DNA of 20,908 nt from positions 1-20,908 of the IMG/VR virus record IMGVR_UViG_3300032011_002262; one strand, written 5' to 3'. Of the stretch, positions 2,066 to 15,525 are shown one piece after another. How positions within the stretch are numbered: the first letter of the stretch is position 1; every line of letters starts with the position of its first letter. The notes under the pieces were generated by a model. The model saw nothing but the letters and a program-made list of their open reading frames with translations, was not told the origin of the DNA and did no database searches. The position numbers and the translations under genes were made by a program. This DNA comes from a virus.

Positions 2066-3622
2066 ATGGAAGGAAAAATTAAAGCTCTGCTTTTTGCAGG
2101 ACTATTGGCCATTGGCCTTTTGATGAGCGCCGTTGCTAAGGCCTCAGACATTGAAGAAGTAATTGTTATTGGAGCTAACACCACATACGGATATTCAAAT
2201 CCAGAAACAGATTACTCTATTATAGAAGCACTTGATCCTACAAGAACTTATCAGCCAGGTGGCATAGGTGGTTTCGTAGGAGCAACAACACATGGAACAG
2301 ATACTAAGCATACAACTGTTTATAGAAATGGAATTCCTGTTAATGATCCTGGCTCAGGCTGGTATGATTTTGGAACAGAACTTCCTACATTCCAATCACT
2401 AACAACAATATCAGGACCTAATAGTGCCTTGTATGGTTCTTCGTCAATGGCAGGAACAATACTTATGGAGGATAACTTTGACGGCAAAAATCTTTTTATG
2501 AGATTAGGCGATGATATGTATTCAATACAAGGCGGAACAGAATCGTTTCACTTGTCTACATATAAAGGATCTAATGGTTCTGTAAGAACAGATAATACAG
2601 AAGAGGATTGGTTTGAAAATGTAACACTTAAAACCAAGACAGAATACGGCCAATGGAAAATGATTTCAGTTCTACAAGACTACAAATATGATTATGATAA
2701 TTGTTGGTTTGGTTTAGGTGGAAATGAATGTGTTCAAGAAGGATTTAAATCAGATGTTTCTATCAGAGGAGATTGGTTGACTGTAGGTTACTCATTAAAT
2801 GATGTAAAACATAATACAGGATGGGAAGCTAAAAATGAAAGATATTTTATAGATGCTAATAAAGAAGTTATCCCTGGACTAATACTAGGTGCACAGAACA
2901 ACCAGGAAAAATATAATGATGCGTGGGATAATAGAACAGCAGGTTATCTTAACTACAATATTAATGGAAATTATGGAGTAGGTTATAGATTTGAGGAGAA
3001 CGAACACATTTATAGATTAGGTTATGAGTCAGCCGGCTTTAAAATATCTTTTGCTAATAGTTTTAGAAAGCCAAACTTATATGAAAGATATGGTGATGAT
3101 TGGGTCTTTGGTAATCCTAATTTACAACCTGAAAAAGGCAAAGGTATTGAGGCATCTATTAGTGGTATTACATTATGGCATTATGAATTCTCACAAAGCA
3201 TTGATTATAACTTTTCATCTTCATCATATATCAACGCAGGAGGATATGATTCTACAGGTATTAAGTATGCGAAAAATTGGATGTTAGATGAAGGTAACTT
3301 GAATGTGTTTTTAGGATATACAGATTCAGATAGAGTTAGAGTACCTGAACAAAGAATTAGAATAGCTTGGAGTGGTAGTAATACAGATGGTAGATTGGAT
3401 TATAGAATAACCTATATAGGACAATACAACAAAGGTAATGATTTTGACGGAACATCTATTGATGATGTATCTACTTTCAACTTTAACCTGGGATACTACC
3501 TAACACCAAGACATCGCTTAGGCTTTCAAATTAGGGACATTTTGGACAGAGATTTCGAGATTTTACCCGGTTTTGGGGCTGGTGGTAGGGAATTTTCCTT
3601 GTCCTTGGACCTAACTTATTGA
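2066..3622 (+). CDS. TonB-dependent outer-membrane receptor (BtuB-like)
   Basis: A 518-aa outer-membrane active transporter. Residues 1-26 are a signal peptide (AKA cleavage site). EEVIVIGA (30-37) resembles a TonB box. Residues ~50-135 form the plug, with RNGIPVNDP (87-95) and SGPNSALYGSSSMAGTI (116-132), classic TonB-dependent receptor motifs. From about 140 on the sequence is strand-like. FRKPNLYERYG (333-343) and GNPNLQPEKGKG (349-360) match the conserved barrel signature, and the protein ends in an aromatic residue (Tyr518), as outer-membrane barrels do. It is shorter than E. coli BtuB (about 590-615 aa), so outer loops are probably trimmed. It appears intact, with AT-rich codon use like its neighbours. 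The ligand cannot be read from sequence. The ribosome-binding site is weak (GAGA at 2057-2060). Confidence 0.92.
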   Translation: MEGKIKALLFAGLLAIGLLMSAVAKASDIEEVIVIGANTTYGYSNPETDYSIIEALDPTRTYQPGGIGGFVGATTHGTDTKHTTVYRNGIPVNDPGSGWYDFGTELPTFQSLTTISGPNSALYGSSSMAGTILMEDNFDGKNLFMRLGDDMYSIQGGTESFHLSTYKGSNGSVRTDNTEEDWFENVTLKTKTEYGQWKMISVLQDYKYDYDNCWFGLGGNECVQEGFKSDVSIRGDWLTVGYSLNDVKHNTGWEAKNERYFIDANKEVIPGLILGAQNNQEKYNDAWDNRTAGYLNYNINGNYGVGYRFEENEHIYRLGYESAGFKISFANSFRKPNLYERYGDDWVFGNPNLQPEKGKGIEASISGITLWHYEFSQSIDYNFSSSSYINAGGYDSTGIKYAKNWMLDEGNLNVFLGYTDSDRVRVPEQRIRIAWSGSNTDGRLDYRITYIGQYNKGNDFDGTSIDDVSTFNFNLGYYLTPRHRLGFQIRDILDRDFEILPGFGAGGREFSLSLDLTY

Positions 3623-12149: not shown

Positions 12150-12592
12150 AAGGATTTGGCGATCCAATAGAAGAAATTAATGAAGAAGAGTTTCAAGAGA
12201 AACTTAAAAAGATCTCTCCTTTTGATTTCGCTAATAGTATTAACACGACAAAAGAAAACCTCATAGTAGATGAAAGGACAGAAAAAGAATATAATCCTTT
12301 TATTGTAAATCGTGCTATGGGATTTGGCAAAGACACAGTTATTGCTGCTAACGAAATGAATGCAAGGCCTCATATTGATAACAAAATGCAATATGACTTT
12401 CTAAAAGACATTATCAGGCCTGCTAAAAGATACAATAAATGGATTAAGAGTGAAGAAGAAAACATTGAAGCTATTCAACAGTTCTTCGGTTATTCTTTCA
12501 TGAAAGCTAAAGAAGCACTTAATCTATTAAATGAAACACAAATTGATCTAATTAAGCTACATCTCAATTCGTCTAAAGGCGGTAAAGTATAA
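12128..12592 (+). CDS. 62: Clamp loader small subunit (gp62)
   Basis: A 154-aa partner of gp44. It has no ATPase motif but shows features I recognise from gp62 of marine T4-like phages: SPFDFANSIN (30-39), PFIVNR (57-62), ANEMN (74-78), the basic aromatic KRYNKW (100-105), YSFMKAKEAL and a GGKV end. T4 gp62 is longer (187 aa). ATG 12128 is chosen because AAGGA lies at 12116-12120; the frame could open upstream at TTG 12077, which would overlap the small membrane gene. Its stop codon lies inside a late-promoter motif. Confidence 0.88.
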   Translation: MVEKAILEGFGDPIEEINEEEFQEKLKKISPFDFANSINTTKENLIVDERTEKEYNPFIVNRAMGFGKDTVIAANEMNARPHIDNKMQYDFLKDIIRPAKRYNKWIKSEEENIEAIQQFFGYSFMKAKEALNLLNETQIDLIKLHLNSSKGGKV

Positions 12593-12595
12593 ATA
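12588..12595 (+). promoter_or_regulatory. T4-type late promoter overlapping the gp62 stop
   Basis: TATAAATA spans the TAA of gp62 (12590-12592), 48 bp before the RegA start. It matches the late element exactly, which would allow late transcription of regA and the radical SAM and oxygenase genes behind it. Confidence 0.6.
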
Positions 12596-12643: not shown

Positions 12644-13063
12644 ATGAGTGATCAAGAGAATTACTTTAACATAAACTATCCAGGGTATTCACCCTTAGAA
12701 GTTACCTTAAACGACCCAGAAGACTTTCTGAAGGTTAGGGAAACTTTATCTCGAATCGGAGTTGCTTCAAAGAAAGAACAAGTACTTTATCAGTCATGTC
12801 ATATCCTCCATAAAAAAGGTAGATATTTTATTACGCACTTCAAAGAATTATTTGCTCTTGATGGAAAGGAAGCAGACTTTCAAGATAACGATTTACAAAG
12901 AAGAAATACTATTGCAAAGCTACTCCAGGATTGGGGACTTGTGAATATTATTTCTGAGGTAGAGGACTATGCTCCTTTAAGCCAAATAAAGATAATATCG
13001 TTCAAAGAGAAAGGTGAGTGGGATCTTATCCCCAAATACAACATTGGAAAGAAAGTTAAATAA
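12644..13063 (+). CDS. regA: RegA translational repressor
   Basis: A 139-aa RNA-binding protein that in T4 represses translation of many early mRNAs, including gp44, gp45 and its own, by binding near start codons. Residues 18-137 follow T4 RegA closely: DPEDFLKVRETLSRIGVA (24-41), VLYQSCHIL (47-55), LLQDWGL (93-99), FKEKGEWDLIPKYNIG (120-135). The 16 residues before this core (rich in Asn and Tyr) are an extension relative to the 122-aa T4 protein. The ribosome-binding site is poor (AGGA at 12628-12631, 12 bases away), and a different start cannot be excluded. Gene order gp44-gp62-regA is as in T4, despite the insertions upstream. Confidence 0.94.
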   Translation: MSDQENYFNINYPGYSPLEVTLNDPEDFLKVRETLSRIGVASKKEQVLYQSCHILHKKGRYFITHFKELFALDGKEADFQDNDLQRRNTIAKLLQDWGLVNIISEVEDYAPLSQIKIISFKEKGEWDLIPKYNIGKKVK

Positions 13064-14345
13064 AAACCAGATAGAAGCCCTCCAACTTATTAAAGACGAA
13101 CAGGACAATGTAGGTCCTGGCTTCTGCGTGCTTAAATGGTATCATTTAGAAATGCACTTAGGTACAGGTGAAAGTCATTCCTGTTATCATTGTCCTACAC
13201 AGAAAATTCCACTAGGAGCCGACTTACATAATACACCTCAAAAGATTGAAAAAAGAGCTGAGATGTTGCAAGGCAATAAACCTTCAGAGTGCTCTTATTG
13301 TTGGGAGGTAGAGGATCTTGGACTTATATCAGATAGGCAAACTCTTGCCGTTCAGTTTTTTAAACATAATAGAGATATAGTAAAAGAAGCAACTGATGCT
13401 GGAACAGGATATGTTTATCCTAAGTATTTAGAACTATCATTTACTAACAAATGCCAATTGGCATGTTCCTATTGTGGTCCTGTATTCAGTACAACATGGG
13501 AAAGAGAAATAGAGGAAAAAGGGCCTTACAATTTATCAATACCTTATAATAAAATAGAATCACCTCAGATAGAAAACTCTCCCTATGTATCTAAGTTTTG
13601 GAAATGGTTTCCACAGGCATATAAGCATTTATTTGTGCTTAGAGTTACAGGTGGTGAGCCTTTATTAGATAAGAACACATATAAGTTACTCCAATATGTA
13701 AAAGATAACCCAAGAAAAGGATTAACATTCCATTGCAATTCTAATCTTATGGTTTCAGAAAATAGAGTAAAAAAGTATATAGGTTTGGTTAAAGATATTC
13801 CTAATACAAAACTTTATGCTAGTATTGATTCATGGGGTAAACAGGCAGAGTATATTAGACATGGATTAGATACCTCACATTTTGAGGAAAATTTACACAG
13901 ATTACTAGGTAACGGAATATCAGTAGGAATAATGAATACATTTAATTTTTTATCTATTCATAATATAGAAGAGTTCATATTTAAAATGGCAGAACTTAAA
14001 AATACATATGGAGATTTAATTACAATAGACATGCCTTATATGACAAATCCAGAACACCTTTCAGCACAAATTTTAGATGATACTCATATAAGTATTATGG
14101 AGAACAGTTTAAAGACAATGGAAATGTATGATGTCTTTAGTACAGCAGAAATAGAAAAATATAGAAAGACAGTAGGCTGGATAAAGGCAAATAGATTTCA
14201 AGACTTAGAACTTCTAAAACATAGAAGAGATTTTTGGCACTTTGTATATGAACATGATAAAAGAAGAGGCACAGATTTTAAAGATGCCTTTCCAAATATA
14301 GGATTTAATAATGGACCCATTGAAAGCAGATTACTCGGATCATAA
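13014..14345 (+). CDS. Twitch-domain radical SAM protein
   Basis: A protein of up to 443 aa. The cluster motif CQLACSYC (Cys147, 151, 154; CX3CX2C) binds the 4Fe-4S cluster that cleaves S-adenosylmethionine, and VTGGEPLLD (211-219) is the SAM-binding GGE motif. Further cysteines before it (57, 60, 93, 96, in SCYHC and CSYCWEVED) are conserved in this phage and bacterial family, called twitch because the second cluster domain is short. The substrate is unknown. The start is uncertain: GTG 13014 has no well-spaced ribosome-binding site, and TTG 13044 is an alternative; both lie inside the end of regA, so coupling is likely. The last 35 bases can overlap a longer reading of the next gene. Confidence 0.87.
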   Translation: MSGILSPNTTLERKLNKNQIEALQLIKDEQDNVGPGFCVLKWYHLEMHLGTGESHSCYHCPTQKIPLGADLHNTPQKIEKRAEMLQGNKPSECSYCWEVEDLGLISDRQTLAVQFFKHNRDIVKEATDAGTGYVYPKYLELSFTNKCQLACSYCGPVFSTTWEREIEEKGPYNLSIPYNKIESPQIENSPYVSKFWKWFPQAYKHLFVLRVTGGEPLLDKNTYKLLQYVKDNPRKGLTFHCNSNLMVSENRVKKYIGLVKDIPNTKLYASIDSWGKQAEYIRHGLDTSHFEENLHRLLGNGISVGIMNTFNFLSIHNIEEFIFKMAELKNTYGDLITIDMPYMTNPEHLSAQILDDTHISIMENSLKTMEMYDVFSTAEIEKYRKTVGWIKANRFQDLELLKHRRDFWHFVYEHDKRRGTDFKDAFPNIGFNNGPIESRLLGS

Positions 14346-14370
14346 AGTTGGAGAATTCCGAGGGTTTATA

Positions 14371-15000
14371 ATGAATAACCCTACGGTCTTTACAATAGAC
14401 GATTTTCTCCCTAAACCTTTATTCGATTTAATACTTGAAGGTATTAGAGAAGGAGAGGATACATTTGATAGAGCTAGTGTAGTAGATGCAGAAACAGGAG
14501 AGTCCACTATACATAGGTTGAGAACAAATCAGTCAGCTCCCTTAGGTTATGCTAAATTACCAGCTGCTTGTGCCTTTAGAGATTTAGCAGCAGCAACTTT
14601 AAGATTACATTATACACAGGCAGAAGAACTATCAGTAATTAAATATGATTTGGGACAAGAATATGCTCCACATCATGATTGTTTTTCGCCAGAAAATTTA
14701 AAGATGAATCGTCCAGAGGCGGGTAATAGAATATTTACAGCTTTATTATATATGACTGATGTTACAGAAGGCGGACAAACAACATTTCCTCATTTAAATA
14801 TAGAAATAACACCTAAGGCAAATAGATGTATTTTCTTTAGTACAACACACACCGGAACAGATAAGTCTTTAGATCAAGCATTACACGGTTCAAGACCAGT
14901 TATTAGAGGCGAGAAGATTGCTATTAACTTATGGTTTAGAGCTAATGTATATAACTATGGCGAATACCAAAAAACCCTAGATGAGCAAGAAAAACAATAA
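14371..15000 (+). CDS. 2-oxoglutarate/Fe(II) oxygenase, prolyl 4-hydroxylase type
   Basis: A 209-aa oxygenase of the prolyl-4-hydroxylase alpha-subunit fold, which couples decarboxylation of 2-oxoglutarate to hydroxylation of a protein or small substrate. Iron ligands: His101 and Asp103 in HHD, and distal His172 in LHGSRPVIRGEK; Lys182 in that motif binds 2-oxoglutarate. GGQTTFPHL (134-142) is the characteristic core strand. ATG 14371 has GAGGG at 14360-14364; the in-frame ATG 14311 would add 20 residues and overlap the radical SAM gene. Marine T4-like phages often carry several such genes and their substrates are mostly unknown. The stop directly precedes the late promoter of hsp20. Confidence 0.92.
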   Translation: MNNPTVFTIDDFLPKPLFDLILEGIREGEDTFDRASVVDAETGESTIHRLRTNQSAPLGYAKLPAACAFRDLAAATLRLHYTQAEELSVIKYDLGQEYAPHHDCFSPENLKMNRPEAGNRIFTALLYMTDVTEGGQTTFPHLNIEITPKANRCIFFSTTHTGTDKSLDQALHGSRPVIRGEKIAINLWFRANVYNYGEYQKTLDEQEKQ

Positions 15001-15006
15001 AACTCT

Positions 15007-15014
15007 TATAAATA
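15007..15014 (+). promoter_or_regulatory. T4-type late promoter of hsp20 (TATAAATA)
   Basis: TATAAATA inside an 18-bp stretch (15000-15017) identical to 7975-7992. It begins a few bases after the oxygenase stop and lies 62 bp before the hsp20 ATG. Confidence 0.85.
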
Positions 15015-15017
15015 ATA

Positions 15018-15040
15018 GTGATACGCCGAAAGGGTATCAT
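15018..15040 (+). other. Hairpin in the hsp20 leader
   Basis: TGATAC (15019-15024) pairs with GTATCA (15034-15039). Inside, CC (15026-15027) pairs with GG (15032-15033) around a GAAA tetraloop, leaving one bulged G at 15025. The 8-bp stem would be near the 5' end of the late transcript and could stabilise the mRNA. It does not cover the ribosome-binding site at 15062-15067. Confidence 0.5.
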
Positions 15041-15075
15041 ATATTAACCTTGCTAACTAATAGGAGGAAACTAAA

Positions 15076-15525
15076 ATGGTAAGATTAAACACGACTAACT
15101 GGAACGATTTTGTTTCAGCATTCCCACAAATAGAAAGTAGACTAATTGGATTTGACAGAGTCTTTGACGCTGTTACCAGACTTCACACCGTTGAAGGAGG
15201 CCAATCTAACTCTTTCCCACCTTATAATATTAAAAAGCTAGACGCTGAGAATTATGAAATTCAAATTGCTCTTGCAGGATTCAGTAAAGATGAATTAGAT
15301 ATTGTTGTGGAAGACGGCAACCTTGTTGTCAAAGGTGAACAGAACCATACGCCTAAGGCGGAGTTCTTACATAAAGGAATTGCAGAACGCAATTTTACTA
15401 GAACATGGGCATTGGCTGATGAAGTTAAAGTCACAGGTTCTGAATTGAAGGATGGAGTTTTATCTATTTCACTGGTACATGAAATCCCAGAGGAAAAGAA
15501 ACCTACATCTATTGAAATTAAATAA
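15076..15525 (+). CDS. hsp20: Small heat shock protein, Hsp20 family
   Basis: A 149-aa IbpA-like holdase that keeps unfolding proteins soluble without ATP. The alpha-crystallin domain runs about 47-136, with FPPYNI (47-52), AGFSKDEL (67-74), FLHKGIAERNFTRTW (97-111, with the conserved Arg105) and LKDGVLSISL (124-133, the GVL motif). An I-P-E tail (IPEEKKPTSIEIK) follows, as in bacterial relatives. The strong AGGAGG site (15062-15067) and late promoter indicate abundant late production, consistent with a role in virion assembly, as proposed for Hsp20 of T4-like marine phages. Hsp20 next to the replication genes is typical of these phages. Confidence 0.95.
   Translation: MVRLNTTNWNDFVSAFPQIESRLIGFDRVFDAVTRLHTVEGGQSNSFPPYNIKKLDAENYEIQIALAGFSKDELDIVVEDGNLVVKGEQNHTPKAEFLHKGIAERNFTRTWALADEVKVTGSELKDGVLSISLVHEIPEEKKPTSIEIK

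Follow-up and report, generated by a model that had tools for sequence, protein, structure and literature searches.

The radical SAM (rSAM) gene and the 2OG-Fe(II) oxygenase (2OG) gene that follow regA in this uncultured marine T4-like phage, a member of a little-known family, are a co-inherited but dissolvable cargo cassette. They occupy a slot between regA and hsp20, and because they are usually inherited together, yet each is also found without the other, they are better described as swappable cargo than as a fixed machine. The explanation favoured here, to which we give about even chances of being right, is that this variable slot holds a cargo cassette within a late unit, encoding a prolyl 4-hydroxylase (P4H) and a peptide- or protein-directed rSAM enzyme which are separately useful. 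The idea of a fixed pair gives way to a measurable slot in which rSAM, P4H and desaturase genes swap among related phages, and the natural absences of the 2OG gene in otherwise similar phages provide a comparison set for a substrate search.

Locus and gene identity

The stretch of DNA that was analysed, referred to as the window, is a virus record of 20,908 bases which carries T4-type replication genes in order. Its DNA polymerase has its best match in the phage collection, at about 49.5% identity, to cyanomyovirus polymerases. The gene order is regA, rSAM, 2OG, hsp20, a conserved unknown ORF, a nuclease gene and gp43 (Table 1). An earlier note on this DNA had called the two enzyme genes and placed them directly after regA. 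Both are recovered as ORFs (the rSAM frame at 13014-14345 and 2OG at 14311-15000), their classes are confirmed by matches to PF04055 (E 2.9e-8) and PF13640 (E 6.3e-15), respectively, and the PF01818 gene that precedes them confirms the position. With the N_Twi_rSAM model NF033640 (twitch domain-containing radical SAM protein), whose cut-off is 170 bits, the rSAM ORF scores 302 over residues 36-429 as read from its GTG.

The same note had started the rSAM gene at this GTG (13014), which is improbable since the frame runs into a stop at codon 5 in most relatives inspected, whereas all regA-rSAM loci listed share a TTG (13044 in the window) 19 nt ahead of the final base of the regA stop. Comparison of the sequences therefore makes TTG 13044 the more likely start. 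These loci all have the TTG because their RegA isoleucine codon at that spot is invariably ATT. The claim that the two enzyme genes follow each other within 25 bp is correct for the second ATG of the 2OG gene (14371), which lies 25 bp downstream of the rSAM stop, but not for the first (14311), which lies inside the rSAM gene and gives an overlap of 35 bp. The 2OG genes of most relatives have in-frame ATGs that overlap the end of rSAM, and judged from the sequences ATG 14311 is probably the start.

Two further genes of the window lie outside the slot. A TonB-dependent receptor-like gene (PF07715 plug; 2066-3622) is carried here by a phage, and a 54% identical piece of it is found at the locus edge of a more distant relative. 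A peroxiredoxin-like gene (Redoxin, PF08534; 9282-9902) separates gp45 from gp44 in most relatives whose sequence reaches this part.

Table 1. Features of the regA-hsp20 region, in coordinates of the window
Feature	Position	Strand	Evidence
TATAAATA, T4-type late-promoter-like element 5' of regA	12588..12595	+	motif scan, conservation in relatives
regA, translational repressor gene, opening the unit	12644..13063	+	PF01818, E 9.3e-45
N_Twi_rSAM radical SAM enzyme, putative TTG start, 20 nt overlap with regA stop	13044..14345	+	PF04055, NF033640, start comparison, alignment
CxxxCxxC radical SAM cluster motif (C137, C141, C144, counted from TTG)	13452..13475	+	alignment
Prolyl-4-hydroxylase-type 2OG-Fe(II) oxygenase, alternative ATG 14371	14311..15000	+	PF13640, alignment, structure match
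HxD iron ligands H121 and D123 of 2OG enzyme	14671..14679	+	invariant, 21/21
Distal H192 of 2OG enzyme	14884-14886	+	invariant, 21/21
2OG-binding K202 of 2OG enzyme	14914-14916	+	invariant, 21/21
TATAAATA 5' of hsp20, next unit	15007..15014	+	motif scan
RNA hairpin between 2OG gene and hsp20	15013..15046	+	-11.7 kcal/mol, z -2.6
hsp20, downstream edge of variable slot	15076..15525	+	PF00011

The contents of the regA-hsp20 slot

Relatives were collected with three genes as baits. The rSAM bait contributed the 80 best of 191 relatives, giving 79 distinct loci; the 2OG bait contributed three loci as a single protein and, as an alignment, the 80 best of 180; and the regA bait contributed the 80 best of at least 599. 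Pooling all baits yielded 132 loci with regA and hsp20, after 18 loci with regA and no hsp20 in the stretch were dropped. Their slots comprise 71 different sequences, which fall into 53 clusters at 95% identity. In this pooled mixture, which is skewed toward the baits, the slot holds both genes in 29 clusters, rSAM only in seven, 2OG only in four, a desaturase in five, an ORF of 177 residues in one, and nothing in seven. The order regA-rSAM-2OG-hsp20 thus recurs in 29 of the 53 clusters (95% nucleotide identity), which argues that the adjacency is no chance effect. When the regA bait is taken alone, 67 of its 80 loci show hsp20 and form 43 clusters, of which 19 contain both genes, seven rSAM only, four 2OG only, five the desaturase, one the 177-residue ORF, and seven are empty. 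Absence of either enzyme gene refers here to the slot as searched by tblastn at 1e-5 and not to the genome; one record with a 2OG-only slot (G022) has N_Twi genes elsewhere. RegA identity is at least 80% in all 26 rSAM-bearing clusters found with the regA bait and in the cluster with the 177-residue ORF, and below 80% in the other 16.

The linked pair of the earlier note is therefore borne out as far as common descent and neighbourhood in 29 of 53 clusters are concerned, but not as an obligate association. Slots with a single gene appear in both tallies, and among the 43 regA-bait clusters seven have rSAM without 2OG and four have 2OG without rSAM, so an obligate rSAM-2OG pair is rejected. The desaturase-like ORF of about 240 residues is found in seven loci (L190, L192, L196, L204, L205, L206 and L215) and matches PF00487 in the two that were tested. 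The 177-residue ORF (L174 and L177) appears 2OG-like by eye only, and the copy tested has no Pfam or PHROG match.

Promoter-like elements and the probable transcription unit

The element TATAAATA is presumably a late promoter by analogy with T4. It is not enriched across the whole window (three found, 3.09 expected), and it lies upstream of regA in 44 of the 51 clusters that have enough upstream sequence, where shuffles predict 2.1; since the clusters are related to each other, these counts measure conservation and not independent events. The distance to the aligned regA start is mostly 45-56 nt, and the remaining seven clusters carry CATAAATA in place of TATAAATA. The element before regA is a candidate T4-type late promoter, which would be used by a gp55-like sigma factor. 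The motif was absent from the 120 nt upstream of rSAM (0/36) and of 2OG (0/33), and is found upstream of hsp20 in 28 of 53 clusters. With a late-promoter-like element before regA and none before either enzyme gene, regA-rSAM-2OG looks like a single transcription unit. Several relatives have a hairpin-like sequence 5' of hsp20 similar to the one in the window. Scans returned 12 sigma-70 promoter-like hits, below the shuffled mean of 16.4, and five terminator-like hits against 2.4.

Inheritance of the cassette

On a backbone tree of concatenated gp44, RegA and gp43, in which many rows are incomplete, the presence of rSAM requires two changes and that of 2OG four, and 2OG is absent in at least two separate rSAM lineages which fall in two parts of the tree. 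The 2OG proteins of the 29 pairs form one clade (support 99/97), and the four from 2OG-only slots form a clade of their own. The 2OG tree is uncertain, with several long branches, and a single clade uniting the pair and 2OG-only proteins is not rejected (AU p 0.097). In partial Mantel tests rSAM and 2OG co-vary at 0.62 given RegA and, given gp44, at 0.57 with 19 taxa (p 0.001), at 0.65 without the long-branched L030 and at 0.52 in 10 close relatives. Together with the single clade, this co-variation argues that the pair was inherited together, and regA, rSAM and 2OG are passed on like one block.

A possible explanation of this behaviour is that the two enzymes form one functional line and act one after the other on a single protein or peptide, a reading which would account for the 29 of 36 rSAM-bearing slot clusters that keep 2OG directly behind, with frames mostly overlapping or near-abutting, as well as for the co-variation. 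However, RegA and rSAM co-vary about as strongly given gp44 (0.46 with 19 taxa, 0.48 without L030, 0.65 in the 10 close relatives), so that physical linkage alone can explain the rSAM-2OG signal, and the partial Mantel tests lend no support to a functional co-evolution of the pair beyond linkage. The corresponding values for 2OG and Hsp20 are 0.06, -0.03 and -0.20. All of these values are noisy, as 2OG-Hsp20 gives 0.27 (p 0.004) when RegA is held constant and rSAM-SNase 0.57 in the 10 close relatives of the window phage. The seven clusters with rSAM and no 2OG, spread over separate parts of the backbone tree, and the four with 2OG and no rSAM at the slot likewise speak against a single line, the latter with the reservation that the one record examined has N_Twi genes at another place. 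A shared substrate modified in two steps is therefore regarded as unlikely. Because each enzyme occurs in the slot without the other, each can be useful alone, as the preferred reading of a dissolvable cassette supposes.

The two genes evolve at different rates. Of eight genes compared, 2OG is the fastest with a mean p-distance of 0.58 (rSAM 0.35, regA 0.11). The dN/dS of rSAM is about 0.11-0.16 in all five chosen comparisons, which indicates purifying selection, and that of 2OG is about 0.28-0.35 in four of five, with dN above dS in the fifth, a very close pair. In the 2OG genes of the very close phages L020 (6456-7121) and L021 (9300-9965), dN is 0.046 and dS 0.018, on few changes.

The radical SAM enzyme

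In an alignment of 40 rSAM sequences C141, C144, C28, C47 and C86 are invariant and C137 and C83 nearly so. The N-terminal cysteines of this set resemble an auxiliary Fe-S module of the SPASM/twitch-like type, which the enzyme may thus possess; PF13186 (SPASM) does not match the window protein at E 0.1, and in Bdellovibrionota it matches neighbouring radical SAM proteins at their N-terminus. The structural model (pLDDT 91) is closest to the RiPP maturase SkfB and to anSME, BlsE, DesII and MoaA, all of which match nearly equally, so the fold is uninformative on the substrate. The top matches are separated by only about 1-2 Z units and include the small-molecule enzymes BlsE, DesII, MoaA and viperin, and a non-peptide substrate is accordingly possible. 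Viperin itself was considered and rejected as an identity, with 15.3 bits against 180 for NF038283 and viperin structures standing beside many other radical SAM families among the matches. The rSAM profile had no match among PDB sequences at E 1e-3, and in cultured phages the matches are weak and all in Vibrio phages, with about 24-26% identity among the matches listed.

Small molecules or glycans of the cell surface are an alternative kind of target for both enzymes, suggested by the rSAM arrays that lie beside tailoring genes at other places in these phages. One relative of 170 kb (G001) has, besides its regA copy, four tandem N_Twi genes that score over the cut-off and a fifth, weak match; the array region (positions 1-30000) also contains a fatty acid desaturase, an Asp/Arg-hydroxylase-like ORF, a carbamoyltransferase and other ORFs. 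Radical SAM cassettes are also located in the host-recognition island of pelagimyophages, according to PMC7029224. Against this, the regA-hsp20 slot is without glycan genes and the 2OG enzyme encoded there resembles peptidyl prolyl hydroxylases down to the substrate-positioning residues, which makes small-molecule or glycan targets for both enzymes improbable.

A profile scan of genome contigs found at least 31 loci, the first 14 of which are long alignments at 34-40% identity, mostly from Bdellovibrionota. Eight genomes of this phylum have 2 to 19 matches each over the N_Twi cut-off (controls, 0/14). The marine phage enzyme is in this way connected with a radical SAM family that has undergone strong expansion in predatory bacteria. 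A run of N_Twi genes spans about 22-55 kb on one contig (C192) of one of these genomes, G021. In two of the eight a PqqD gene lies directly beside an N_Twi gene in divergent orientation (G016 contig 108 and G018 contig 47); no PqqD was found in 13 phage records, which are mostly fragments. The expansion of N_Twi genes in predatory Bdellovibrionota, sometimes with an adjoining PqqD, hints at a peptide as rSAM substrate. A larger proposal, which we consider quite unlikely, is that rSAM and P4H are a two-step tailoring line for a ribosomally synthesised protein or peptide, within a large N_Twi system common to predatory Bdellovibrionota and marine T4-like phages; if true, two kinds of bacteria-killers may use this system on proteins of their prey or on those with which they attack it.

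The prolyl 4-hydroxylase-type oxygenase

In addition to the iron and 2OG ligands (Table 1), E105 and R140 are invariant in the 21 aligned 2OG sequences. All structural matches of the model (pLDDT 93) ranked 1 to 35 are prolyl 4-hydroxylases, the best being the algal and the Bacillus anthracis enzymes, and one entry among the matches is titled as modifying EF-Tu. E105 and R140 align with Glu127 and Arg161 of the algal enzyme, which are key for placing the proline substrate (numbering and role from PMC5684110). The assignment to the P4H type is well supported by sequence and model, and as the Fe/2OG ligands and both substrate-positioning residues are kept, peptidyl-proline is the likely substrate. 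PF01391 and a Gly-X-Pro DNA pattern revealed no collagen-like target in 14 phage records, most of them fragments. In cultured phages, 2OG matches occur in nine records. A main role in draining 2-oxoglutarate or in DNA repair, both of which PMC3037559 proposes for cyanophage 2OG-Fe(II) oxygenases, is very unlikely in view of the P4H-type sequence and fold, the conserved peptide-positioning residues, and the lack of similarity, at E 1e-3, to any of four proteins that are annotated as 2OG in a stretch of pelagimyophage HTVC008M.

Proposed role

Under the favoured reading of a separable cassette, rSAM and 2OG would be transcribed together with regA from the late-promoter-like element, and their translation would begin at overlapping starts. 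The 2OG enzyme would most likely hydroxylate proline in a protein or peptide, and the rSAM enzyme, with its putative N-terminal auxiliary Fe-S module, would most likely modify a peptide or protein by radical chemistry. Together they would probably be active at a late stage of infection, with virion proteins of the phage or proteins of the host as targets, and the two enzymes need not share a target. We infer both the rSAM chemistry and the two substrates; protein substrates are plausible for both enzymes and most clearly for the P4H-type 2OG.

Comparison with known systems

HTVC008M resembles the window in that its replication module has 2OG genes beside hsp20 and upstream of gp62. Its 49 kb stretch around the replication genes contains four 2OG genes, with no rSAM detected and no match to the window-type 2OG at E 1e-3. 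The four annotated 2OG-Fe(II) oxygenase genes (HTVC008M 60000-109000) are distributed around replication and structural genes, and one of them adjoins a tryptophan halogenase gene. A literature search, which did not extend to supplementary files, found no paper on the rSAM-2OG pair and no described function for the N_Twi family.

The window 2OG has in common with the peptidyl prolyl 4-hydroxylases Chlamydomonas P4H-1, Bacillus anthracis P4H and PBCV-1 vCPH the fold, the Fe/2OG ligands and the equivalents of Glu127 and Arg161; it differs in having only about 17-26% identity to them in structural alignments and no collagen-like target found. The rSAM protein scores as a member of N_Twi_rSAM and is encoded here by a lone copy overlapping regA, unlike the members in Bdellovibrionota and elsewhere in G001, which occur in several copies or arrays. 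Radical SAM genes are known from marine T4-like phages, with 12 in one genome of 183 kb, and one such phage, OBV_N00005, has a likely SAR86 host by its IscU gene (PMC5332604, in the sections covered here). No description of a regA-coupled, 2OG-paired copy was found in those sections or in the corresponding ones of PMC7029224, and the radical SAM cassettes that they do describe in T4-like marine phages are the same kind of cargo as the rSAM gene of the window.
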